A stretch of DNA of 64,000 nt from Demequina sp. NBRC 110055. Lineage in GTDB: Bacteria; Actinomycetota; Actinomycetes; Actinomycetales; Demequinaceae. The notes under the pieces are model-generated. The model did no database searches. It had not been told where the DNA came from and was given only the letters and a program-made list of their open reading frames with translations. The stretch covers positions 682,001 to 746,000 of the forward strand of contig NZ_BBRL01000004.1 in NCBI RefSeq assembly GCF_002090135.1, written 5' to 3'. Below, one piece after another: positions 4,733 through 48,593 of the stretch (the first letter of the stretch is position 1; every line of letters starts with the position of its first letter). The translations under genes and the position numbers were made by a program.

Positions 4733-6208
4733 ATGGCCCGCGGCGATGGCCTGCTTACCCACGACCTGCTTCCCGGCGAGAAGGGGCCGCAGGATGCCTG
4801 CGGCGTCTTTGGCGTCTACGGCCCCGGCGAGGAGGTCTCGAAGCTCAGCTACTTCGGCCTCTACGCCCTGCAGCACCGCGGCCAGGAGTCCGCGGGCATC
4901 GCAACCTCGGACGGCCAGAAGATCCTGGTCTACAAGGACATGGGCCTGGTCTCGCAGGTGTTCGACGAGGCCGCGCTTGAGGCGCTGACGGGCCACATGG
5001 CCGTGGGCCACGCGCGCTACTCGACCACCGGCGCGTCCGTGTGGGCCAACGCGCAGCCCACGCTGGGGCCCACCAAGAACGGCACGGTCGCGCTGGGTCA
5101 CAACGGCAACCTCACCAACACGCACCGGCTGCTCGAGCTGGTTGCCGAGCGCCTCGGTGAGGAGCGCCGCGATGAGATGTTCAGCGGCGGCGTGACCGAC
5201 ACCGCTATCCTCACCGCCTTGTTGGGCTGGGATCGCTACGACACCGTCACCGAGACCGCGCTCGAGCTGCTGCCCCATGTCGAGGGCGCGTTCTCCCTGG
5301 TCTTTATGGACGAGGACACGCTGTACGCGGCGCGTGACCCGCAGGGGGTGCGCCCGCTGGTGCTGGGTCGCCTCGCGTCGGGTGGCTGGGTCGTCGCCTC
5401 CGAGACGGCCGCGCTGGATATTGTGGGCGCCGTGCAGGAGCGCGAGGTCGAGCCCGGCGAGTTCCTCACCATCAACGCCGACGGCGTGCACTCGCAGCGC
5501 TTCGCCGAGGCCGCGCCCAAGGGCTGCGTTTTCGAGTACGTCTACCTCGCCCGCCCCGACACCAAGATCGCCGGCCGCTCCGTGCACGCCTCCCGTGTCG
5601 AGATGGGCCGCCAGCTGGCGCGTGAGTACCCCGTCGAGGCGGACATGGTCATGCCGACCCCCGAATCCGGCACCCCCGCCGCCGTGGGGTACGCCCAGGA
5701 GTCCGGCATCCCGTTTGGCCATGGGCTCGTCAAGAACTCCTACGTGGGCCGTACCTTCATTCAGCCCTCGCAGACGCTGCGCCAGCTGGGCATCCGCCTG
5801 AAGCTCAACCCGCTGCGCGAGCAGATCGAGGGCAAGCGCCTGGTGGTTGTGGACGACTCGATCGTGCGCGGCAACACCCAGCGCGCCGTGGTCGCCATGC
5901 TGCGCGAGGCCGGCGCGGCCGAGGTGCACCTGCGTATCTCCTCGCCGCCCATCCAGTGGCCGTGCTTCTACGGCATCGACTTCGCGACGCGCGACGAGCT
6001 CATCGCCGTCGAGCACTCCGTCGACGACGTGCGCCGGCACCTGGGTGCTGACTCGCTGGGCTACATCTCGGTGGACGGCATGATCGCCGCGACCGAGCAG
6101 CCCCGCTCCAAGCTCTGCACCGCCTGCTTCACCGGCGAGTACCCCATCGAGCCGCCCGTGAGCGCGCGCCACCTGCTTCTCAACCAGCCCGTGGAGGTCT
6201 CCTCGTGA
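4733..6208 (+). CDS. purF: Amidophosphoribosyltransferase
   Basis: PurF catalyses the first committed step of purine synthesis, using glutamine and PRPP to make phosphoribosylamine. The 491-residue protein has an N-terminal nucleophile domain: after a 22-residue propeptide (usually removed) comes Cys23 in ACGVFGVYG, then YALQHRGQESAGI. The PRPP-binding motif VVVDDSIVRGNT lies near residue 371, and late Cys residues (CTACFTGEYP) fit the iron-sulfur type of PurF. The ATG at 4733 is chosen over an in-frame GTG at 4688 because AGGAGG lies just upstream of it. It is coupled to purM by a GTGA overlap. Confidence 0.95.
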   Translation: MARGDGLLTHDLLPGEKGPQDACGVFGVYGPGEEVSKLSYFGLYALQHRGQESAGIATSDGQKILVYKDMGLVSQVFDEAALEALTGHMAVGHARYSTTGASVWANAQPTLGPTKNGTVALGHNGNLTNTHRLLELVAERLGEERRDEMFSGGVTDTAILTALLGWDRYDTVTETALELLPHVEGAFSLVFMDEDTLYAARDPQGVRPLVLGRLASGGWVVASETAALDIVGAVQEREVEPGEFLTINADGVHSQRFAEAAPKGCVFEYVYLARPDTKIAGRSVHASRVEMGRQLAREYPVEADMVMPTPESGTPAAVGYAQESGIPFGHGLVKNSYVGRTFIQPSQTLRQLGIRLKLNPLREQIEGKRLVVVDDSIVRGNTQRAVVAMLREAGAAEVHLRISSPPIQWPCFYGIDFATRDELIAVEHSVDDVRRHLGADSLGYISVDGMIAATEQPRSKLCTACFTGEYPIEPPVSARHLLLNQPVEVSS

Positions 6209-7308
6209 CCGAGCCCATCACCTATGCCGACGCCGGCGTCGACACCGAGGCGGGCGATAAGGCCGTCGAGCTGATGAAGTCTGCCGTCTCGCGCACCCAC
6301 GGACCCGAGGTCCTCGGCGGCGTGGGCGCCTTCGCGGGTCTCTTCGACGCCTCGGCGTTGAAGGCGTACGACCGTCCGTTGCTGGCGTCCTCGACCGACG
6401 GCGTGGGCACCAAGATCGTGATCGCCCGCGCGCTCGACGTGCATGACACCATCGGCCAGGACCTCGTGGCAATGGTCGTCGACGACATCGTGGTGTGCGG
6501 CGCGAAGCCGCTGGTCATGACCGACTACATCGCGTGCGGCAAGGTCGTGCCTGAGCGCATCGCGGACATCGTGCGCGGCATCGCCGAGGGCTGTGAGATG
6601 GCCGGCGTGGCGCTCGTGGGCGGCGAGACCGCCGAGCACCCCGGCGTCATGGAGCCCGACGACTACGACGTGGCGGGCGCGGCGGTGGGCGTGGTCGAGG
6701 CCTCCGCGGTCCTCGGGGCCGAGCGTGTGCGTGAGGGCGACGTGGTCGTGGCGATGGCCTCGTCGGGCTTGCACTCGAACGGCTACTCGCTGGTGCGTCG
6801 CGTGGTCTCCCACGCGGGCTGGCATCTCGACACGCACCTGGACGACCTCGGTCGCACCGTGGGCGAGGAGCTCCTCGAGCCCACCCGGATCTACTCGCAG
6901 CTGTGTGTCTCGCTCGCGGCGTCCGTGCCGGGCCTGCGCGCCTTCTCGCACGTGACCGGCGGTGGGCTGGGAGCGAATGTCGCCCGCGTGCTGCCGCAGG
7001 GCCTGGCCGCGACCGTGTCACGTGGCGCGTGGGACCTGCCCGCCGTGTTCTCCGTCGTTCAGGCCGCGGGCTCCGTGCCCTGGAACGACCTGGAGTCCAC
7101 CCTCAACATGGGCGTGGGCATGGTGGCGGTCGTGGCGCCGGAGGACGCGGAGGGGCTCATGTCCACCTCGCGCGCCGCGGGCGTCGAGGCCTGGACCCTG
7201 GGCGAGATCGTCACGGACGACGGCCGCATCCCGTCGCCCGACACCATCCGCGGCGCCAAGGGCGTCGACGGGGGAGCGGTCTACCTCAGCGGCGCGTACC
7301 GGGCGTAG
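6205..7308 (+). CDS. purM: Phosphoribosylformylglycinamidine cyclo-ligase
   Basis: PurM closes the imidazole ring, converting FGAM to AIR with ATP. The 367-residue protein has the family motifs SSTDGVGTK near residue 62, DDIVVCGAKPL, ALVGGETAEHPG, and the C-terminal block LNMGVGMVAVV. Its GTG start overlaps the purF stop by four bases, so the two enzymes are translationally coupled. Confidence 0.95.
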   Translation: MTEPITYADAGVDTEAGDKAVELMKSAVSRTHGPEVLGGVGAFAGLFDASALKAYDRPLLASSTDGVGTKIVIARALDVHDTIGQDLVAMVVDDIVVCGAKPLVMTDYIACGKVVPERIADIVRGIAEGCEMAGVALVGGETAEHPGVMEPDDYDVAGAAVGVVEASAVLGAERVREGDVVVAMASSGLHSNGYSLVRRVVSHAGWHLDTHLDDLGRTVGEELLEPTRIYSQLCVSLAASVPGLRAFSHVTGGGLGANVARVLPQGLAATVSRGAWDLPAVFSVVQAAGSVPWNDLESTLNMGVGMVAVVAPEDAEGLMSTSRAAGVEAWTLGEIVTDDGRIPSPDTIRGAKGVDGGAVYLSGAYRA

Positions 7309-7337
7309 TCCCGTCGCGTCGCGTGTCGCCCTGATGC

Positions 7338-7401
7338 GTCCGAGGAGCCGCTGGCTGCCCGCTTTCGCGCGAAACCGGGCGCTGAGTGGCTCCTAGGAGA
7401 C
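7338..7401. repeat. Dispersed imperfect palindrome, family 1 copy a
   Basis: A 64-bp element with ends resembling CGAGGAGCC and GGCTCCTAGGAGAC and an inner GCGCGAAACCGGGCG block. It aligns along its whole length with 40785-40848 and more loosely with 55443-55508. It lies in the gap after purM. Confidence 0.6.
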
Positions 7402-7446
7402 TCCGGGGGCTGCGCCGGTCCGTGCACACCACCCGGGCACGCCGAA

Positions 7447-7474
7447 AGCGCGCCAGCCGCGAGGCCGGCGCGCT
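7447..7474 (-). terminator. Hairpin downstream of the DUF3073 gene
   Basis: AGCGCGCC and GGCGCGCT form an 8-bp stem around a 12-base loop, about 20 bases beyond the stop of the leftward DUF3073 gene. It is a plausible terminator without a strong T-run. Confidence 0.45.
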
Positions 7475-7492
7475 CAGGTGGAGCGAAAGAGC

Positions 7493-7666
7493 TTAGCGCT
7501 CGTCGTCGTCCGCCCAGCGGTCGTACTTGTCGTCGGCCTCATCGGGCTCCTCGGCAGAATGGCCGATCAACTCGCGCTCGAGGTCGCGAATGTCGCTGCC
7601 GTGGTTCGAGTACTTGAGCTGACGCGCGATCTTCGCGTCCTTAGCCTTCTGACGGCCGCGCCCCAT
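7493..7666 (-). CDS. DUF3073 family protein
   Basis: This short gene reads from ATG (7666) to TAA (7493) and encodes 57 residues. It begins MGRGRQKAKDAKIARQLKYS and ends in a strongly acidic stretch (DEADDKYDDWADDDER), the recognisable shape of the actinobacterial DUF3073 family: basic N-terminal half, acidic C-terminal tail. The function is unknown. It is often found near purM and bldC in actinobacteria, as here. Confidence 0.85.
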   Translation of the reverse strand: MGRGRQKAKDAKIARQLKYSNHGSDIRDLERELIGHSAEEPDEADDKYDRWADDDER

Positions 7667-7929
7667 GTCGCCGCCCCTTCCGCTCGTCGCGGGCGCGCGT
7701 ATTTCGCGGGCCCTGCGTGATGAGTGCTGAGTAGAACTTTACAACGTGCGGGGGCGTGATCGCGACTCCCTGCGTGGCCCGGAGCGCCGCGACACGCAAA
7801 GCACTTGCATCAAAAAACCGGAACTTCTCTCCCAAAACGACGTCATAATCGAGAATGTGAACGGTCTCACTGTTCACGAGGTCCCAACGCCGGGGCCGTA
7901 CACGCCATGAATTCTGAGGGGAATCACGG

Positions 7930-8133
7930 ATGATGACCGATGTTGTCAAGGAACCGGAGAAGCTGCTGACGCCGAGTGAGGTGGCCGCGATCTTCCGCGT
8001 CGACCCCAAGACGGTGACCCGTTGGGCGAAGGTCGGCAAACTCTCTTCGATTCGCACTCTTGGCGGTCACCGCCGCTTCCGCGCCGCGGAGGTCAATGAG
8101 CTGCTGGCAAAGGCGCAGGAACAGGGCGCCTGA
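7930..8133 (+). CDS. bldC: BldC-like MerR-type DNA-binding protein
   Basis: A 67-residue single winged-helix protein (LTPSEVAAIFRVDPKTVTRW, then KLSSIRTLGGHRRFRAAEVNELL), almost the length of Streptomyces BldC and with the same helix-turn-helix and wing. BldC proteins lack an effector domain and bind DNA cooperatively at direct repeats to control development or stationary-phase genes. Two ATGs occur in tandem (7930, 7933) after a gagggga stretch. The 260-bp upstream region is gene-free and somewhat richer in A/T (a CATAAT at 7844-7849 could be a -10). Confidence 0.85.
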   Translation: MMTDVVKEPEKLLTPSEVAAIFRVDPKTVTRWAKVGKLSSIRTLGGHRRFRAAEVNELLAKAQEQGA

Positions 8134-8164
8134 CGGGCCGGGTGGCGGGCGTACGCTGACGCCT

Positions 8165-8716
8165 GTGCCCGCCCCCGTCCTCGTCTCGTCACATCCCACT
8201 CCCGTCGGCCCGCTGACCGTCGCGCTCACGGCCGCAGACGGCGTGGTCCGCGCTGCCAGTTTCCTGCCGTGGGAGGAGGCGGTGCTGCGGTTCCCGCGTG
8301 CCGTGATGGCGCTGGGCTGGGCTGAGGGTGCCCAACCCCAGGTGGCCGATGCCGTGGCCGGCTGGATCGCCGGCGACGACACCGCGCTGATGACGCTCGC
8401 TGTCGCCCAGGAGGGCGGCGCGTTCACCCAGGAGGTGTGGGCCCAGATGCGTACCGTCCCTGCGGGCAGAACCGTGTCGTACGGAGAGTTGGCCGAGATG
8501 GCCGGTAGGCCTCGCGCGGCGCGAGCCGTAGGCACCGCCTGCGCGGGCAACACCATCGCAGCCTTCGTGCCGTGCCACCGCGTGGTGCAGGCCGGCGGGC
8601 GGCTGGGGTCGTATGGGTTTGGTGGCATGGAGAACAAGGCCGCGCTGCTGAGGCTCGAGGGGGTGGAGGTGTCCTCCGCGACGCCCGCCGCCCGCCTCGT
8701 GGAGCGCACCGCGTGA
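8165..8716 (+). CDS. ogt: Methylated-DNA--protein-cysteine methyltransferase
   Basis: A suicide repair protein that transfers the methyl group from O6-methylguanine to its own cysteine. The active-site motif PCHRVV is at about residues 136-141, followed by the G-x-LGSYGFGG segment; TVSYGELAEMAGRPRAARAVG is the DNA-binding helix-turn-helix region upstream. The GTG at 8165 gives 183 residues, normal for the family, whereas the longest reading frame would run back into bldC. The gene carries one copy of the dispersed 15-mer, read as VADAVAGW. It overlaps the next gene by four bases (GTGA). Confidence 0.9.
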   Translation: MPAPVLVSSHPTPVGPLTVALTAADGVVRAASFLPWEEAVLRFPRAVMALGWAEGAQPQVADAVAGWIAGDDTALMTLAVAQEGGAFTQEVWAQMRTVPAGRTVSYGELAEMAGRPRAARAVGTACAGNTIAAFVPCHRVVQAGGRLGSYGFGGMENKAALLRLEGVEVSSATPAARLVERTA

Positions 8717-9651
8717 CGCCGGCCGATGCCCCGTTGCGTGCGTGGCTGCCGTACTTCCTGGGCGTCTCGGCGGCGTGGGGCGCGAGCTTCCTGTTCATCT
8801 CCATCGGGCTGCGTGCCTTCGCGCCCACGCAGGTGGCGTTCGGCCGAGTGCTGTTCGGCGCGATGACCCTGATCGCGCTCGTCGTCATCACCCGCAACGT
8901 CCCGCGCCTCACGTGGCGCAAGGTGGGCGCCGTTGCCGTCGTCGCGGCGTTCATGTCGGGGATCCCGCTCGTCCTGATCCCCGCCGCGCAGCAGCACATC
9001 TCGTCGATCCTCGCGAGCCTGTTGAACGCGACCACGCCGCTGTGGACGGCGCTGTTCGTCGCCCTGCTGATCCCCGCGGAGCGGGTGACGCGCGCGCAGC
9101 TCACGGGACTCGTGATCGGCGCGGTCGGCATCGCGATCCTGCTGGGCGCGTGGCGGGTAGCCGACTTCCCGGTGCTGGGAGCGGCGCTGATGTTGTCCGC
9201 GACGGCCTGCTACGGCATCGGCTCCACGCTGTCGCGCGTGCTTCTCAGCCGCGTCCAGGACTCCCCGGCGGCACTGTCGTCGATGCAGATCACGGTGTCC
9301 GCGCTCATGCTCGCGCCGTTCGCCCTCGCGGCGCCCACGCCCGCGCCCGGCGCCATCGCGCCGGACTCGGTGTCGCTGTGGGCGATCGTGGCGCTGGGCG
9401 TGACCGGCACGTCGTTTGCGTACGTGTGGTTCTGGAAGGTGGTGAAGGTCGCCGGGGCGACCACGGCATCGTCCGTCACCTACGTGGTGCCCGTCGTCGC
9501 GACCTTCCTCGGCATCGTCGTGCTGGGCGAGGAACTGGTCTGGTACGAGGTCGCCGGAGCCGTGGTGGTGTTCGCCGGCGTGTGGCTCGCACAGCGCAAG
9601 CCCAAGCCCCGGCCGGAGACGATGCCGGAGCTGAAGGGCTCCGCGGCTTAG
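8713..9651 (+). CDS. EamA/DMT family membrane transporter
   Basis: A 312-residue protein with about ten hydrophobic helices in two EamA repeats (ASFLFISIGLRAFAPTQVAF in the first; SSVTYVVPVVATFLGIVVLG in the second). This family exports metabolites such as amino acids; the substrate is unknown. The GTG start overlaps the ogt stop by four bases. The 3' end overlaps the convergent holin-like gene by about four bases. Confidence 0.85.
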   Translation: MTPADAPLRAWLPYFLGVSAAWGASFLFISIGLRAFAPTQVAFGRVLFGAMTLIALVVITRNVPRLTWRKVGAVAVVAAFMSGIPLVLIPAAQQHISSILASLLNATTPLWTALFVALLIPAERVTRAQLTGLVIGAVGIAILLGAWRVADFPVLGAALMLSATACYGIGSTLSRVLLSRVQDSPAALSSMQITVSALMLAPFALAAPTPAPGAIAPDSVSLWAIVALGVTGTSFAYVWFWKVVKVAGATTASSVTYVVPVVATFLGIVVLGEELVWYEVAGAVVVFAGVWLAQRKPKPRPETMPELKGSAA

Positions 9652-10019
9652 AAGACCGAGTCCTTGATGCGCTGGATCGAGGCGGCCGGGTAGATGTCCT
9701 TGTAGCGCTTGATCTTGCCCGCGCCGATGCCGGCGAGAATCAGCATGATCAGCAGCATGGCGCCGGCGACCACGAGCGCGGCGAGCCACACGGGCCACAC
9801 CACCGACAGTCCAGCGATCGCAGCGACGATCAGCACGAAGAACAAGAAGAAGCCGAGCGCCGCGGCTGCGGCGATGAGGCCGATGCCGATGCCAAGCTGG
9901 CGGCCCTTGACCTTGAGTTCGAGCTTGATCACCTCGGACTCGGCCTTGATCGTGGCGATCCACTGACCGGCGATCGCGCCGAGCAGGGTGTTGAGCAGGG
10001 TCTTGCCGAAGCTGGCCAT
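9648..10019 (-). CDS. Phage holin superfamily-like small membrane protein
   Basis: 123 residues. An amphipathic N-terminal third with alternating charges (IKAESEVIKLELKVKGRQ) is followed by two adjacent hydrophobic hairpin helices (about 45-66 and 72-95) and a basic tail, the shape of the PF07332 phage-holin-like family found in many bacterial chromosomes. No prophage genes are nearby, so it is probably a host envelope protein. The start at 10019 has gaggag upstream; the longer reading has none. Confidence 0.65.
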   Translation of the reverse strand: MASFGKTLLNTLLGAIAGQWIATIKAESEVIKLELKVKGRQLGIGIGLIAAAAALGFFLFFVLIVAAIAGLSVVWPVWLAALVVAGAMLLIMLILAGIGAGKIKRYKDIYPAASIQRIKDSVF

Positions 10020-42631: not shown

Positions 42632-42654
42632 TGTTCTCTCTTCAGTACGGGGGC

Positions 42655-43509
42655 TTAGGCGGAGAGCCAGGCGACCTGCTCGGCGGTGAGCGTGAGCTCG
42701 GCGGCGCCGGCGGAGTCGCGGATCGACTCGGGGCGCGAGGCGCCAGGAATCGGGATGACGGTCGGCGCGAGCGCGAGCTCCCACGCGAGGGTGACCTGGT
42801 AGACCGAGGCGCCCACGGCATCGGCCACCTCTTGGAAGGCTCCGTGACGACCGGACAGGTCCTTCGCGTTGGCGATGCCGCCCAGCGGGCTCCACGGCAG
42901 GAACGCGATGCCGAGCTCCGCGCAGTGCTCGAGCTCGCCCTGGCTCGAGCGGAACGCGGGGGAGAACTGGTTCTGGACGGACACGAGCCGCCCGCCGAGG
43001 ATCTCCTGCGCCTGGTCGATCTGCTCGACGTTCGCGTTCGAGATTCCCGCCATCTGGATGACACCCTCGTCCAGCAGGTCGCGGACGGCGCCCACCGAGT
43101 CGGCGTACGGGACGGCCGGGTCGGGGCGGTGGAATTGGTACAGGCCGATGCTGTCGACACCCAGGCGCTGGGCCGATGCCTTGGCCGCCTCCTTGATGTA
43201 AGTCGGGTCGCCGTTTTGGGTCCACGTGCCGTCGCCGGGACGCAGGTGGCCGCCCTTCGTCGCGACGAGGACATGATCGGCGTCGCCGTGCGAGCGCAGG
43301 GCGCGGGCGATGAGCTCCTCGTTGTGGCCCACCTCGGCCGCGTCACGGTGGTACGCGTCGGCGGTGTCGATGAAGGTGACGCCCGCGTTCACGGCGGCGT
43401 GAATGGTGGCGATGGAGCGGTCGGCGTCGGGGCGGCCCTCGATCGACATGGGCATCCCGCCCAGTCCGATGGCCGAGACCTCGCGTCCGCCGATGGTGCG
43501 CTGCTGCAT
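42655..43509 (-). CDS. Aldo/keto reductase
   Basis: 284 residues. FIDTADAYHRDAAEVGHNEE (Asp, Tyr), VATKGGHLRPGDG (Lys) and IGLYQFHRPDPAVPY (His in place of the usual LH pair) give the AKR tetrad; the C-terminal VIPIPGASRPESIRD binds NADPH. It is the first gene of a two-AKR operon divergent from a LysR gene, so the pair is likely LysR-controlled. A copy of the dispersed motif lies inside (42813-42826). Confidence 0.9.
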   Translation of the reverse strand: MQQRTIGGREVSAIGLGGMPMSIEGRPDADRSIATIHAAVNAGVTFIDTADAYHRDAAEVGHNEELIARALRSHGDADHVLVATKGGHLRPGDGTWTQNGDPTYIKEAAKASAQRLGVDSIGLYQFHRPDPAVPYADSVGAVRDLLDEGVIQMAGISNANVEQIDQAQEILGGRLVSVQNQFSPAFRSSQGELEHCAELGIAFLPWSPLGGIANAKDLSGRHGAFQEVADAVGASVYQVTLAWELALAPTVIPIPGASRPESIRDSAGAAELTLTAEQVAWLSA

Positions 43510-43632
43510 CGTGGCAGTCCTCCTGAGGGTGGGGAGTGCGACGCCGGGCGGCGCCGCCACCTTCACTGTAGGAAGGGCTAGCCTAGAAATCCAACAGTTG
43601 CCAGTTCTCAGATTCATCGATGGGAGACATGA

Positions 43633-44532
43633 ATGGATCTGCGCCAGATGGAGTACCTGCTCGCGGTCGCCGAGGAACGGCATTTCACTCGGGCGGCCGA
43701 GGTGGCCGGCATCTCTCAGTCGGGGCTGTCCTCGGCGATTCGCAGCCTCGAGACCGAGCTTGGCACGGCCTTGTTCGACCGCACCACGCGCAGGGTCGAG
43801 CTCACCGAGGCCGGCGCGGCGCTCGTCCCATATGCCAGGACGATGCTCGCGCAGGCCGCTGGGGCGCGCGACGCCGTCGTGAAGGCGAGCCGTGAGGTGA
43901 CGGGCTCGCTGCGCATCGGCGCCGAGCAGTGCCTCGGTTTTGTCGACGTGTCGGCGTTGCTGGAACGCTTCCACCGGCGTCACCCCCGGGTCGAGACCCA
44001 CTTCACGCAGGCGGGGTCGCAGGACCTTGTCGCGATGATTCGCGCGGGAGACCTCGATGTGGCGTTCGTTGCCGCGACGCGCCACCTCGGTGCGCTGCCG
44101 CACGAGACGCTCGGGGAGGAGGACCTGGTGCTGCTCGCCCCGCCGGAGCACCGGCTGGTCGCGGGACCGGCGGTGGCTCCCGAGGTGGCCTGGAGCCTGC
44201 TCGAGAGTGAGGACTTCATCGACTTCACACCCTCGTGGGGAGTGCGGTCGCTGAACGACGAGGCGCTCGCGGCGCACGGCGTGCACCGACGCATCCGCTG
44301 CACGGTCAACGACGTGCATACCCTCATCGACCTGGTCAACAGGGGACTGGGCATCGCCATCGTGCCCCGCCACGTCGCGAACAAGCCCGAGGCCACGCGC
44401 CTGCGAATCCTGGCGTTGCCCGAGACGCCGGGACTCAGGTGGCAGGTGTCCGTCGTGTCCTCGGCGTGGGACAAGGTCGAGGCGCCGTCCACCCGTCTGC
44501 TCGAACTGCTGGCCGACGTCGCACGAGGCTAA
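43633..44532 (+). CDS. LysR family transcriptional regulator
   Basis: 299 residues: the N-terminal winged helix MDLRQMEYLLAVAEERHFTR and AAEVAGISQSGLSSAIRSLE, then the two-lobed effector domain. It is divergent from the two AKR genes across a 123-bp gap that is visibly less GC-rich and should hold its binding site. A carbonyl compound or its metabolite may be the inducer. Confidence 0.9.
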   Translation: MDLRQMEYLLAVAEERHFTRAAEVAGISQSGLSSAIRSLETELGTALFDRTTRRVELTEAGAALVPYARTMLAQAAGARDAVVKASREVTGSLRIGAEQCLGFVDVSALLERFHRRHPRVETHFTQAGSQDLVAMIRAGDLDVAFVAATRHLGALPHETLGEEDLVLLAPPEHRLVAGPAVAPEVAWSLLESEDFIDFTPSWGVRSLNDEALAAHGVHRRIRCTVNDVHTLIDLVNRGLGIAIVPRHVANKPEATRLRILALPETPGLRWQVSVVSSAWDKVEAPSTRLLELLADVARG

Positions 44533-44581
44533 CCGGGCCCCACAGGTGGCGCCAGGGTGCGCCGTGGCGTAGACAGATGCC

Positions 44582-44941
44582 ATGACGAAGACCTCGGAGT
44601 GGTTGGCCGCGTACGTTCGCGCATGGGAGACCAAGGAGCCCGATGACGTGCGCGCGCTCTTCACCGACGACGCGGAGTACTGGTACCGGCCCAATGACAA
44701 GGAACCCGTGCGGGGAATCGACGCGATTATTGCGTCCTGGCAGGAGCCCGAGCCCAGCGTCCCCGAGCACGACCTCCGGGTGCTCATCGAGAATGGCGAG
44801 CTCGGCATCATCACCGGCGATGTGAATTACCCCGGCCATGAGCACTACACGAACATGTGGGAGGTGTGGTTCGCGCCGGACGGCCGCGCCAAGAAGTTCG
44901 TCGAGTGGTGGATGCTGCCGCGCACTCCCGCGGGCGAGTAG
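44582..44941 (+). CDS. SnoaL-like (NTF2 fold) protein
   Basis: 119 residues: VRAWETKEPDDVRALFTDDAEYWYRP at the start is the typical opening of SnoaL-like domains, and WEVWFAPDGRAKKFVEWWM the typical end. Such proteins are small cone-shaped isomerases/hydrolases or binding proteins of unknown substrate. Its stop marks the left edge of the accessory island. Confidence 0.8.
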   Translation: MTKTSEWLAAYVRAWETKEPDDVRALFTDDAEYWYRPNDKEPVRGIDAIIASWQEPEPSVPEHDLRVLIENGELGIITGDVNYPGHEHYTNMWEVWFAPDGRAKKFVEWWMLPRTPAGE

Positions 44942-44942
44942 T

Positions 44943-45482
44943 GGTGGGAAGCGCGCATAACTCTGCTACCTCGATGGATACTCCGGGCCGACCAGGCCCA
45001 GTCCATGCAAAGGCTGTTCCCAGTCCATACGGCCAGCGTCTTCCCAGTTAGACGCTTCTTCTGAGTCGTGCGCATGCGATCGTTTCTGCGCCGAGAAACG
45101 GCAGGGTGCCGGACCGCCGGCCTGCGGAGTGCTCGCATCTTTTCCCCCGAAGGCATGGGTCGCTGCGCGCGACTCTCCGCTACGGAACGCGCGGCTCGAA
45201 CCTGCTGCGGTGGGACGGGTCTCGCAGTCACGAATCCGGCGGCAGCCCCAACCCCGCGCCGCATAAGCGTCTAGGCCAAAACTCACTTACAGACCTGTAG
45301 GGCCCAGCCGAAAGGCTAGGGCCCTACAGGTGCTTGACGCATATCCGGACGACTGCACGAGCGACGCGTCCAGTCCAGCACAGAGCCGCGCATGACCACA
45401 CCCTCGACGGCACTCAAACGGCTGGAAGCAGTAATCGTGCAGTTACGCATCAGAATCGCGTCAGTTCTGCGCACTTCCCCCG
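44943..45482. mobile_element. Island unit 1: short tandem unit without genes
   Basis: 540 bp with no convincing gene. The left end (44943-45036) aligns with the left end of unit 2 (45483-45575): both run GTGGG, then CTACCTCG, TGGATACTCC, and CCCAGTCCAT. The right end carries hairpin H1 (45293-45331) and repeat A1 (45441-45479), which match the right end of unit 2. It is best read as an internally deleted or miniature relative of unit 2. The middle (45060-45280) is GC-rich DNA in which I recognise nothing. Confidence 0.55.
45293..45331. repeat. Hairpin H1 at the right end of island unit 1
   Basis: ACCTGTAGGGCCC-AGCC-GAAA-GGCT-A-GGGCCCTACAGGT forms a 17-bp stem with one bulged A and a GAAA loop (written here in its separate arms). 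The partner hairpin H2 at 48335-48361 has the same plan, the same bulged A and a changed inner base pair. No T-run follows. Confidence 0.8.
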
Positions 45483-45488
45483 AGTGGG
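45441..45488. repeat. Right-end repeat A1 with core AGTGGG
   Basis: A 39-bp sequence (45441-45479) identical at 36 positions to 48476-48514, followed after 3 bases by AGTGGG (45483-45488), which is also the first bases of unit 2. The second copy runs into the 3' end of tRNA-Lys. This is the pattern of an attachment-site repeat. Confidence 0.65.
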
Positions 45489-46141
45489 TAGAGCGCGTAG
45501 CTCAACTACCTCGGTGGATACTCCCGATCCTATGAGTCCAGCGCATGGAATTCCTGATCCCAGTCCATTTCGGTAGCAAATCAACTGGTAGAGACACCTT
45601 CGCGATCACTGACGGGGGCTTTACAGCCGGCCCTACCGTGGGCCAGGGTACGACTTCTGTTGGAAAAGCTCCGTCGGGATCGAGCGACCGCGTGTGCGAG
45701 CGCAGCCGCGCATACCTCCGCGAACGACGCCCCGGCGTCCCCTTCGAGCTGCGTTCGAACGCGAATAGCGAACGCACCAAACCACGTCGGGCCTGCGGCG
45801 TCTCCGAAGACTGCCCGAGTGTTCGTAGTCCTCGGGAGTGCCGAACGGTGCCCGCCCGCTTGCTATGTCTCGTTGCTTGTCGATGGTGGGCTCTGTCCTC
45901 ACGCCCTCACAACTTTCAAAATGGAAATCTGATCCTGACACTCTGTCCTCTGTGGACCTGTCCTAGTGCCAACTCCCCCTACTACCGGCCAAGTGGTGAC
46001 CGCCGTTCTGATGACTTGGAAATCCGGCCTCTTTTTCGCAGGGCCCGCCAGGTCAGCACCGAGATGGAGCTCTGCGGAATGCAGACCCACGGCACCGGAC
46101 GGACTACTACTGGTTGATATCTGCTCCATCTGACCTGGGGT

Positions 46142-46243
46142 ATGGCGCACTGCGCGCTTTGCGGGAAGCGGCGCAGCGTGCGGGAGATCTATCAGAGGGG
46201 CGAGGAGCCAGGTTCCCACGCCGCTAGCGTTGCGGGGCCCTAG
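46142..46243 (+). CDS. Possible 33-residue CxxC peptide
   Basis: A short frame from ATG 46142 to TAG 46243 reads MAHCALCGKRRSVREIYQRG and ends in VAGP. A CxxC pair followed by basic residues recalls half of a zinc ribbon. The preceding bases (ctggggt) are a weak ribosome site. It may be a chance frame or a truncated gene. Confidence 0.2.
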   Translation: MAHCALCGKRRSVREIYQRGEEPGSHAASVAGP

Positions 46244-46327
46244 AACCCGAACCTCGTCAGCCTCAAATCGGCGTGTGCGTGGAGCGCTTCACTGCGGAAT
46301 CTAGGGTCGTGAGCCTACAGTTGGGCC

Positions 46328-47365
46328 ATGGTGAGCATCGAGACGCCCGCGCCTGCCGCGGGCCCTCAGATCCCCGTCACGGGCGTGCGAGGGCGCAGAT
46401 TTGTGCTGGATCTTGCCGCCGCGGTGAGCGACGACGTTTGGCGGACGTTGTTCGATCTGGAGCTTGCCATTGATCGGGGTTTGCCCCGGACCGACGTCAC
46501 GCACCATGCGCGTGAGGTGGCGCGAGCGCTCACAGACGCTCCGATACCGCACTCCTCCACCGATCTTTTGGTGCCGTTGCACCGCTCGATTCAGCATGCC
46601 GTGTACTGGGGGCCCGCCTCGGTGGAGGACAAGGCCAGCACCATTCAGGACCTGAGGGCGGCCACTGTCACGTACGCCGACCGACTGGCCCGTGCAGGAC
46701 TTGTCCAAGAACTGCTTTCTCCTGGTCCAGTTGAGGTGATCCTCCGCACTGAGGACACGCAGGCCCATGCCCCCGCGAACGTCCAGGCGGCGCTCGAAGA
46801 GTGGCGCTCGCCGGCCCGGGCACGCCGCAGAGTCTTCCGCCTCAAGCCCAGGGCGGCGTCCCTGGGTACCTGGTGGGTAGTACCGCCACAACTGCCCCGC
46901 ACCACCCGCCTGTGGCCAGGCCATACTCCGGCCGCCCTTTACTCGAGGGAGGATGATCGAGGCGAACTCGAAGCGACGAGCGTCTCCATCGACGACCGTC
47001 CCGCTCGGGTCCTTGAGATTCGCGCGGCTCACGACTGGCTCGGGCTGGTCGATCGCTACCCGCTCGATGGGACGCGGCGAGTCGGGAAGTGCTGGGATAT
47101 CGCGTTCGAAATGTCATCCCGGTGGATGGTGCCCGATTGGTCGGCAGCCGCACAGGAGTGGGACGCGGTCCATCTCCCGCTGCAGTCGTATCTGAGCTTC
47201 GGCGCGATGCCGCTGCCTCTGTCGTCGGAGAACACTACCGCGATCGCCGGCTTCGACGCCGATACGACTGTGTGGCTCAACGGCTCCCCGACGGGCCGGG
47301 GAGCCGCCACGGGCTGGCGACGCGAGGACGGCGACAGCCCGTGGCGACCAGCCGCCACCGAGTAA
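46328..47365 (+). CDS. Unknown cytoplasmic protein, island cargo
   Basis: 345 residues, no signal peptide or membrane helix. From memory, the C-terminal half (about 225-325) has a pattern I have seen in unassigned actinobacterial proteins: RAAHDWLGLVDRYPLD, then WMVPDWSAAAQEWDAVHLPL and AGFDADTTVWLNGSP. The N-terminal half is predicted helical and acidic/basic mixed. No catalytic motif is evident. A TACAGT six bases before the ATG could make it leaderless, though the -35 is weak. Its stop directly abuts the stop of the convergent secreted-protein gene. Function unknown. Confidence 0.65.
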   Translation: MVSIETPAPAAGPQIPVTGVRGRRFVLDLAAAVSDDVWRTLFDLELAIDRGLPRTDVTHHAREVARALTDAPIPHSSTDLLVPLHRSIQHAVYWGPASVEDKASTIQDLRAATVTYADRLARAGLVQELLSPGPVEVILRTEDTQAHAPANVQAALEEWRSPARARRRVFRLKPRAASLGTWWVVPPQLPRTTRLWPGHTPAALYSREDDRGELEATSVSIDDRPARVLEIRAAHDWLGLVDRYPLDGTRRVGKCWDIAFEMSSRWMVPDWSAAAQEWDAVHLPLQSYLSFGAMPLPLSSENTTAIAGFDADTTVWLNGSPTGRGAATGWRREDGDSPWRPAATE

Positions 47366-48052
47366 TTACGTGCCGCAGGAGTATTCCTTCTTCGGGGACT
47401 TGGTGACGAGCGAGTACACGCAGTTGTCCCACCGCACTACAACGTGCTGATTGACCGTGTGCCAGGTTGTATTCTTGTTATTGGTGCACTTCTTGCTCCA
47501 ACTAGTGGGTCCGTAAGCGGCTACGCCGTAGTTCTTGCCCGACCAGTGATCCACTTGGCTACTTCCAGTTCCCCATACGGAGCGCACCTTCATAAGCACG
47601 GTATTGATCCGCAACTCCTTCTTGCTCGACTTGCATTTGGTCGTCGGCTTCGACCCAATAGCTTCATAGTTGCTGCTTTGACGTTCGTACGGCCACCCTG
47701 GCTTGGCCTCACAGTCCGTGTTGGGGATGTTCGGCACGATCGCCGCAAGCGCCGTCATGCCACCCAAAGTGTTCACGCTGGCCTGCGGAGCCGCGTCGTC
47801 GTGAGGGACGAGTAGCGTTTCACCCGGCTCAATTGCGGCGTCGATAGCCGAAAGCTCGTCATCCGACAACGTACCCAGCCCGTTTTCGATCATAAGGATG
47901 AACGCCTCTGCAGTGCGCTGGTCGAGATCTTCAAGCACGACCACTTCGACACTGTTCGGCCCGTCGTCAGCCGAAGCAGGTACGCTCCCACCGGCCAATA
48001 GGGCAACTGTGCCCGCAAATGCCATCGCAAATGTTCGCATTCGAGTACTCAT
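47366..48052 (-). CDS. Unknown secreted cysteine-containing protein, island cargo
   Basis: 228 residues. A signal peptide with a likely Ala-Ser-Ala cleavage site (GGSVPASADD) is clear. An acidic N-terminal third (EDLDQRTAEAFILMIENGLG) is followed by a Lys/Ser/Thr-rich C-terminal half with five cysteines and several tryptophans (WSGKNYGVAAYGPTSW, NTTWHTVNQHVVVRWDNCVY). No family recognised. Codon use is less GC-rich than in the neighbours, consistent with transfer. It shares the stop region TAATTA with the convergent cargo gene. Confidence 0.65.
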   Translation of the reverse strand: MSTRMRTFAMAFAGTVALLAGGSVPASADDGPNSVEVVVLEDLDQRTAEAFILMIENGLGTLSDDELSAIDAAIEPGETLLVPHDDAAPQASVNTLGGMTALAAIVPNIPNTDCEAKPGWPYERQSSNYEAIGSKPTTKCKSSKKELRINTVLMKVRSVWGTGSSQVDHWSGKNYGVAAYGPTSWSKKCTNNKNTTWHTVNQHVVVRWDNCVYSLVTKSPKKEYSCGT

Positions 48053-48334
48053 CTAGTTGGCTCCATTCATAGAGTGGAGTTGCAAAAGCGCCGCTCCGAG
48101 CAGATCGTATTTCGTTACTGCCGAATTCACCAGAGTGTCGAATCGCATATCTCTCGCGACTTACATATTCGCAAGAGTGATACTTGTCGGCCGAGGCGCG
48201 GACGAAAACCCACGCATACAGGCTTCGCCGAGTACGGCGTCGAGCCCGGCGAAGCGCCTCTACGCATCCCGGGGCGTCTACCGCCCGGCACAGAAGCCGC
48301 CTAGCCGCCGCTCAAAACTCCAGAGACAGCCCCA

Positions 48335-48361
48335 AGGGCCCCGCCACCAGGCGAGGGCCCT
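48335..48361. repeat. Hairpin H2 at the right end of island unit 2
   Basis: AGGGCCC-CGCC-ACCA-GGCG-A-GGGCCCT: same stem plan and same bulged A as H1, with the inner pair changed from A-T to C-G and the loop from GAAA to ACCA. The flanks also match (CAAAACTC upstream, GACGCATA downstream of both). Confidence 0.75.
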
Positions 48362-48475
48362 ATCGGGCGTTCCTCGAGGCTCCTGACGCGCCAGAACAAC
48401 TCCCGGCCAAGACTCTGAGTGACGCATAATCTGGTCACGGATCCAGTTTCGATCAGCCCACATGCGATCGCGCGA

Positions 48476-48524
48476 GGTTACGCAACAGAATCGCGCCAGT
48501 TCTGCGCACTTCCCGACTAGTGGG
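48476..48524. repeat. Right-end repeat A2 running into tRNA-Lys
   Basis: The 39-bp repeat (48476-48514) matching A1 at 36 positions, followed by AGTGGG (48519-48524). The last four bases, TGGG, are the discriminator and first acceptor bases of tRNA-Lys. Confidence 0.65.
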
Positions 48525-48593
48525 CCCCGTGGGGCTCGAACCCACGACCTACGGATTAAAAGTCCGCTGCTCTACCAACTGAGCTAGAGGCCC
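48521..48593 (-). tRNA. tRNA-Lys (TTT)
   Basis: A 73-base cloverleaf on the leftward strand: acceptor GGGCCTC/GGGGCCC with one T-G pair, anticodon loop CTTTTAA, T-arm GTGGGTTCGAGCCCCAC, discriminator A. Its 3' end forms the right boundary of the accessory island. Confidence 0.95.

Follow-up and report, generated by a model that had tools for sequence, protein, structure and literature searches.

Which machinery stacked two units with common ends, but no recombinase, against a single tRNA gene? Tyrosine integrases are the usual explanation for islands at tRNA genes in bacteria. In Demequina sp. NBRC 110055, however, none of the PF00589 matches of the genome falls within the window (the whole 64,000-nucleotide stretch of DNA analysed here), in agreement with the initial annotation, which saw no recombinase in the units. 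The evidence assembled below makes it very probable that both units are derivatives, lacking the transposase, of a family of cargo-carrying DDE transposons that insert precisely at tRNA 3′ ends, since the same ends surround a DDE transposase in another Demequina genome and a relic of such a transposase persists in one of the units. This transposon family is apparently undescribed, and it can carry large anti-phage defence islands.

Two units stacked against tRNA-Lys

The insertion target, tRNA-Lys(TTT), is intact (48520-48593, reverse strand), and the native left flank of the site is a SnoaL-like gene (44582-44941, forward strand; Pfam SnoaL_2, 8e-10). Between them lie two inserted units of 540 and 3,036 bp, each length including the left GTGGG: unit 1 (44944-45483), a miniature element, and unit 2 (45484-48519), which holds cargo, a transposase relic and a right end. 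Two units with a shared end architecture at this tRNA are what the initial annotation had described. Its AGTGGG core stands at two sites, where an A precedes (45483 and 48519), but not at the first, where the preceding base is a G (44943, reading GGTGGG). The core common to all three sites (44944, 45484 and 48520) is the 5-bp GTGGG, a target duplication whose first copy (44944-44948) is followed by one at the boundary between the units (45484-45488) and by a third that coincides with the final five bases of the predicted tRNA gene (48520-48524).

The left ends of both units (44944-45030 and 45484-45570) are 83% identical over their first 41 bp and align without gaps with those of four other genomes; that of unit 1 consists of a core-proximal block and, at a constant spacing, two repeats of the CCAGTCCAT type. 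The right ends are alignable, as had been noticed, over about 215 bp rather than ~110 bp, and the repeat within them (45442-45479 and 48477-48514) has the 36 identical positions first counted, in a length of 38 bp instead of 39. A hairpin with perfect 13-nt arms occupies 45293-45331 in unit 1, and the 215-bp right end of unit 2 (48305-48519) has a hairpin-forming stretch near 48335-48362. The terminal inverted repeats of unit 1 (44946-44963 and 45462-45479) agree at 15 of 18 positions, a value reached by 0/2000 shuffles; those of unit 2, whose right repeat is at 48497-48514, are weak (12/18, reached by 24/2000 shuffles).

No convincing gene was seen in unit 1 when its open reading frames were judged by eye, as in the first description. 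Unit 2 encodes a protein of 345 aa with no assigned function (46328-47365, forward strand), with homologues in 77 of the 396 genomes of the order (its own included), and one of 228 aa, secreted-looking by eye (47366-48052, reverse strand), for which only 2/396 genomes gave matches, namely itself and one weak match. Neither of these two larger genes had a Pfam or PHROGs match. Beyond them, the last 36 codons and stop of a transposase remain on the forward strand (48194-48304), and the stop codon (48302-48304) is 215 bp from the tRNA. Searches of the host genome for further copies of either unit returned those of the window only.

An empty site joining the SnoaL-like gene to tRNA-Lys, which the initial annotation had thought worth seeking, is found in two related Demequina genomes, with 3 bp (G026) or 0 bp (G042) between the SnoaL stop codon and the tRNA, and it was by comparison with these sites that the GTGGG duplication in the window was read. 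Together with the recurrence of the left end, they bear out successive precise insertions at one tRNA. Unit 1 would have arrived first, and unit 2 later, between unit 1 and the tRNA.

A DDE transposase beside tRNA genes

The key to the units came from another Demequina genome (G009), in which a 52-kb island at tRNA-Lys is bounded by the same ends. A sequence-only model built from six left ends, with that of G009 outside the training set, recovered the G009 left end with E=3e-11. This end opens the island and tRNA-Lys closes it, and the flanking genes on both sides are conserved in relatives. The same ends thus occur around other cargo, as had been anticipated, the left end recurring in other genomes including this one. 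The last gene of the island encodes a 591-aa DDE-type transposase, the right end is the same as in the window, and the terminal inverted repeats agree at 16/18 positions (0/2000 shuffles). The relic in unit 2 has 69% identity to the C-terminus of this transposase and ends at the same distance from the tRNA; unit 2 and G009 are 70% identical over 413 bp spanning relic, right end and tRNA. The site-specific recombinase mechanism initially suggested for the units is not supported by these findings: their ends are those of a DDE transposon, and what unit 2 retains is a transposase relic. The idea that the inverted repeats around the core are attachment sites was likewise dropped once the G009 right end had revealed the transposase.

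Judging from conserved residues and relatives, the transposase is of the DDE type. D194, D307 and E492 are invariant in 14 diverse sequences, all from relatives, the window holding the C-terminal relic only. Among these members, 5/14 match the NCBIfam IS1182 model NF033551 (best 4e-11), three match DDE_Tnp_1_6 and one DDE_Tnp_1 in Pfam. The G009 transposase is not among the IS1182 matches and found no match in Pfam, NCBIfam or PDB sequences, and the family profile matched no PDB sequence. Scans of viral contigs yielded neither transposase relatives nor matches to the two left-end patterns. An intact transposase of this subfamily is missing from the host, where the search recovered the relic and, at tRNA-Met, a relative with 34% identity; attempts to place the left end of the tRNA-Met island gave no position.

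A tRNA 3′ end adjoins 22 of 25 further places with a transposase homologue, and the genes concerned are those for tRNA-Met, Lys, Leu, Glu, Ser, Gly and Pro (the last, tRNA-Pro(TGG), at L156). The three others (L148, L158 and L160) are without a tRNA, and around four copies on Streptomyces plasmids no tRNA lies closer than about 4 kb. The distance from transposase stop to tRNA is 216-264 bp in 14 of the 17 cases measured. Near-identical copies (95-97%) at two tRNA-Leu genes of one genome (G020) suggest recent movement. The duplicated tRNA end, GTGGG at tRNA-Lys here, is TGGTG at tRNA-Leu, and at the tandem junctions of G015 and G020 TGGTG is flanked by inverted repeats.

Most other left-end loci at tRNA-Lys are without the right end seen in the two units, and a single right end conserved across left-end genomes was rejected, clear likeness among 12 junctions being confined to R1/R2, G031/G006 and G037/G034; G014/G006 and G037/G002 were only marginally above 60 shuffles. 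G031 and G006 break off within one and the same cargo gene, each at its own point; G009 has this gene at full length. Plasmid homologues of this gene exist and gave no lead.

A companion gene and a proposed mode of insertion

Upstream of the transposase, a companion gene is present at 20/30 transposase places, twice in tandem at L145, L147, L149, L152 and L154; all ten places from which it is missing show decay or lie at a contig end, and the longest of them is L146. Its product is XerA-like (5e-12) and is predicted to have a tyrosine-recombinase fold from which most catalytic residues have been lost. The box I arginine is kept in 2/20 sequences, the box II histidines in 1/20 and 0/20 and the box III H/W in 0/19; the box II arginine is kept in 19/20, and about 7/19 have a tyrosine near the expected place. 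Recombinase activity is unlikely because the residues of boxes I-III are mostly lost. The family looks like a pairing of a DNA-joining enzyme with a disabled integrase, and the companion is plausibly the target selector, recognition of tRNA 3′ ends being common among proteins with this fold.

In the mechanism that we propose, the transposase would bind the terminal and subterminal repeats and join the element to its target, while the companion would recognise the tRNA gene and direct the insertion, a division of labour like that of TnsB and TnsD of Tn7. As the sequences show, insertion duplicates five bases of the tRNA end; the tRNA thus remains intact and the next element can insert against it, which builds up stacks. 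It is nearly an even question, however, whether the companion is instead an end-binding or regulatory protein, or an unusual recombinase, with the transposase alone recognising tRNA genes. The tandem companions, the retained box II arginine and the occasional tyrosine are consistent with such a role, and in eukaryotes tRNA genes are targets of the Dada DDE transposons (PMC3706591); the loss of most catalytic positions and the habits of the fold argue against it. The most inclusive version of our proposal, an actinobacterial two-component system that moves whole defence islands and trans-mobilises miniatures like unit 1, with a catalytically dead tyrosine integrase guiding the DDE transposase to tRNA 3′ ends, is put forward tentatively, as an idea with somewhat more against it than for it.

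How the units became small is a separate matter. Mobilisation in trans is possible, and unit 1 has the shape of a mini-element produced by internal deletion, of which it is the single copy. We lean slightly towards the alternative that units of the same family arrived full-size and shrank at the site through internal deletion, never having moved as small elements. Unit 2 keeps the transposase tail only, the host lacks both a second copy of either unit and an intact transposase of the subfamily, and decay is common, as seen in an interrupted relic (G017), in broken transposase frames at L142-L144, L148, L164 and L165 and in the G006 and G031 truncations. Nevertheless, unit 1 retains both ends (about 90 and 215 bp) and has lost all else, like a selected mini-element, and a 1.4-kb unit in G015, which retains its two ends and part of a transposase, is again stacked before another element. 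In-place decay and a trans-mobilised miniature family differ only in history.

Remnants of tyrosine-integrase islands (attL/attR of an ICE, IME or phage, CIME-like) that lost their integrase would also show a tRNA 3′ target, tandem accretion and end repeats resembling integrase arm sites, and true integrase elements do occur at tRNA-Lys in G018 and G029. In these, however, an integrase adjoins the tRNA and a repeat comprises 36-39 bp of the tRNA, whereas the stretch that a putative att site in the window would share with the tRNA 3′ end is only 5 bp long. The intact both-ended relative, G009, has a DDE transposase and no PF00589 match in its island, and the window retains a relic of a G009-type transposase, which leaves an integrase origin very improbable. 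A XerC/D-dif-like site was set aside as a passing likeness to a XerC arm, and a phage or plasmid origin was rejected, 45277-45580 being unmatched in phages and plasmids.

Relation to known elements

Targeted DDE transposons are already known as a kind, of which the tRNA-3′-end family is a variant. IS1182 elements are normally short single-gene insertion sequences. A likeness to them, and to DDE_Tnp_1 and DDE_Tnp_1_6 transposases, would lie in the catalytic protein, for which 5/14 members match the IS1182 model and G009 does not. An 86-kb circular megatransposon of Thermoanaerobacter kivui arose through an IS1182-like transposase (PMC12056078). The new family differs in its tRNA 3′-end specificity, companion gene and cargo of up to 52 kb. 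Tn7 combines a DDE transposase, a 5-bp duplication, a fixed safe site, defence-rich cargo and a separate target selector; the first four traits recur here, with a possible selector, but the transposase is of another family, the companion has a tyrosine-recombinase fold and no Tns proteins were recognised in the G009 gene list, read by eye. Dada elements target tRNA and snRNA genes, inserting inside the RNA gene with 6-7 bp duplications, and their transposase is described as a relative of those of hAT, P, MuDR and IS256 (PMC3706591). They resemble the present family as DDE transposons with a tRNA-gene target and differ in being eukaryotic, in duplication length and in inserting within the gene. 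The tRNA-associated islands (ICE, IME and CIME) are similar in site, accretion and integrase-less members. They are driven by tyrosine integrases and have longer tRNA identity, in contrast to the DDE transposase and 5 bp found here.

A family of tRNA islands, some of them rich in anti-phage genes, would be explained by a DDE transposase that annotation libraries mostly miss, and integrase-less tRNA islands can be re-read in this light. The pairing of an apparently dead integrase with a transposase offers a case, open to direct testing, in which an integrase would have been recruited for aiming, and possibly an insertion tool that spares its target tRNA. Unit 1 is itself reminiscent of MITEs, being short and gene-less, with inverted repeats, a target duplication and ends in common with G009, but unlike them it is a single copy at a fixed target site.

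Two stacked insertions and an autonomous relative

Two units are found between the SnoaL-like gene and tRNA-Lys(TTT), unit 1 (44944-45483) and unit 2 (45484-48519), both of which open with GTGGG and a left end of 87 bp and terminate in a right end of ~215 bp, while a further GTGGG (48520-48524) forms the final five bases of the tRNA-Lys gene as called by ARAGORN. Empty sites joining the SnoaL-like gene to tRNA-Lys, as envisaged in the initial annotation, were found in two relatives, where three bases (G026) or none (G042) separate the stop codon of the SnoaL homologue from tRNA-Lys. G026 is 92.6% and 82.7% identical to the window in the left flank and 87.4% in the right flank. Both units are therefore insertions. 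To the left of the SnoaL gene, a segment of ~1.9 kb that includes a LysR-type regulator gene (42640-44565) is replaced in G026 by 84 bp (locus L038, 16185-16267).

The autonomous relative, in G009, is a 52-kb island opened by the left end, closed by tRNA-Lys and flanked on both sides by genes conserved in relatives. Its right end is 70% identical to that of the window over 413 bp, transposase tail and tRNA included. The final gene of the island codes for a protein of 591 aa, and the stop codon of this gene lies 215 bp from the tRNA. Window positions 48194-48304 correspond to the last 36 codons of such a transposase (69% identical), with the stop of this relic likewise 215 bp before the tRNA. 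The left and right terminal repeats in G009 match at 16 of 18 positions in a variant of their own, GGGAAACGTGCA-AACT, agreement of the kind that would be kept up if a single transposase recognised the two ends. Within the 52 kb, PF00589 had no hit. Defence models are matched by seven of the nine cargo proteins tested (type I restriction-modification, GmrSD-like, NsnB-like ATPase); the other two have no such match.

Unit 2 is thus an element of the DDE-transposon type reduced to cargo, transposase tail and ends, and unit 1 is one reduced to its ends plus ~230 bp. They may have transposed in their present small form, the transposase being supplied in trans, or they may have shrunk by deletion in place. 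The same stacked arrangement is seen in G015: a unit of 1.4 kb that has its two ends and a fragment of the transposase stands in front of an element whose transposase frame is long. The 345-aa cargo protein (46328-47365), which has no match in Pfam or PHROGs, has homologues in 77 of the 396 genomes of the order and a second copy in its own genome (C6:53161).

Recurrence of the left end

A sequence-only model built from six left ends and run on the 396 genomes gave matches in eight. Five are training genomes (G000, the window's own, twice; G002, G006, G017 and G018) and three are not: G009 (E=3e-11), G031 (5e-4, at a SnoaL stop codon, with tRNA-Lys 13.2 kb away) and G359 (8e-4), the last a partial match of 29 bp that is probably due to chance. 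Weaker left-end-like sequences lie left of tRNA-Lys in G014, G020 and G037. An exact-pattern search of 84,980 species, among which the window's own record was possibly not covered, matched four contigs, every one from Demequina (D. oxidasica, D. gelatinilytica, D. pelophila and D. aestuarii). In G017 a tRNA-Met, its 3' end likewise GTGGG, lies 7.5 kb from the left end, and the left end of G002 is on a short tRNA-less contig. On this contig (L027, contig 4) a Hint-type polymorphic-toxin tail lies to one side of the left end and a very long frame resembling a surface protein to the other; the contig may be one piece of the tRNA-Lys island, broken up in the assembly.

Mean pairwise identity by column among eight left ends is high in columns 1-30 (0.79), 54-67 (0.74) and 76-84 (0.81) and low in columns 31-53 (0.35) and 68-75 (0.38). 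The conserved modules keep a fixed spacing, as protein-binding sites would be expected to do. In G006 the left end is followed by GmrSD and PD-(D/E)XK genes, in G031 by a methyltransferase, Mrr and two GmrSD-type genes, and in G018 by a toxin-antitoxin-like pair (judged by eye), so the left end does recur with other cargo.

A predicted DDE transposase family and tRNA 3' ends

The 591-aa protein of G009 has no match in Pfam at E up to 0.1, nor at E up to 1 in NCBIfam or among PDB sequences, and the family profile matched no PDB sequence. D194, D307 and E492 are common to all 13 relatives (18-34% identical to it), and of the 14 members three are matched by DDE_Tnp_1_6, one by DDE_Tnp_1 and five by IS1182. 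The conserved glutamate is surrounded by an R-x3-E-x6-K pattern, which resembles that of IS4-type transposases. Judged by sequence, these proteins appear to constitute a DDE transposase family.

Homologues occur in 23 of the 396 genomes, in 30 rows that represent 28 places, two of the genes being split: three already known (the window, G009 and a relic in G017) and 25 others, all fetched. A tRNA 3' end lies on the C-terminal side of the transposase at 22 of these 25 (17/20 and 5/5), most frequently tRNA-Leu(CAG) (10), Met (3), Ser (3) and Lys(CTT) (2), with Leu(GAG), Glu, Gly(CCC) and Pro seen once each. No tRNA stands beside the homologue at L148, L158 is a tandem junction with 18 kb devoid of tRNA, and L160, where the contig ends, has no adjoining tRNA. 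The distance to the tRNA is 216-264 bp in 14 of the 17 cases measured, the outliers being L154 (107 bp) and, both with broken frames, L142 (616 bp) and L144 (52 bp). The transposase has matches in seven plasmid records of Streptomyces or Embleya as well; none of the four copies fetched has a tRNA within about 4 kb, and the association is therefore not universal. All four of these (Streptomyces, L169-L172) share a cassette in which a hypothetical gene and a divergent HTH gene accompany the transposase and the companion gene that precedes it.

At tRNA-Leu in G015 and in a G020 tandem, TGGTG stands between the right end CGAACCA(C/G)CCGT and the left end GGTGGTTCGG that comes after it; TGGTG duplicates 5 bp of the tRNA-Leu end and is bordered by inverted repeats, which in G015 match at 14/18 (1 of 2000 shuffles) and 13/18 positions (10 of 2000). 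Transposase and right-end DNA are 95-97% identical between the copies at two tRNA-Leu genes of G020. The window's own genome has a ~28-kb insertion at tRNA-Met (contig 11, about 40810-69227; L167, L141) with a companion and an open transposase frame 34% identical; its left end was sought and could not be placed, and the corresponding site in G026 is empty. A 3.8-kb unit in G034 (L030, original coordinates about 5984-9852) lies between tRNA-Lys and a 46-bp partial tRNA copy, contains none of the four PF00589 hits of that genome and has a right junction resembling that of G037. A nested locus in G018 (L032, 5380-15327) consists of the family left end and 1.5 kb with the toxin-antitoxin-like pair, then a 36-bp tRNA-Lys fragment and an element whose true integrase adjoins the tRNA.

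A literature search covering mainly open-access journal papers turned up no family of bacterial DDE transposons that specialises in tRNA 3' ends. The nearest parallels it gave are the eukaryotic Dada transposons (PMC3706591) and a megatransposon of IS1182-like type (PMC12056078); a further paper, PMC13313380, is unrelated.

The companion gene

The companion, a putative target selector of roughly 300-450 aa, is encoded upstream of the transposase, often with a 4-bp overlap. Its profile matched XerA chains (4a8e, 5e-12; 5hxy, 2e-7), and the other 23 matches listed are tyrosine recombinases too, at weaker values (0.0065 and above); PF00589 is matched by 8/20 companions at E up to 0.1. The XerA alignment gave the catalytic positions, at which 2/20 companions retain the box I arginine, 1/20 and 0/20 the box II histidines, 0/19 the box III H/W and 19/20 the box II arginine; about 7/19 (counted by eye) have a tyrosine close to the expected place. 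Profiles of both proteins placed a companion at 20 of the 30 transposase places, including three (L151, L162 and L163) detected though absent from the training alignment. Where none accompanies it (ten places), the transposase is truncated or broken or lies at a contig end; L146, the longest of the ten, is missing its N-terminal part. At five loci (L145, L147, L149, L152 and L154), the transposase is preceded by two consecutive companion genes.
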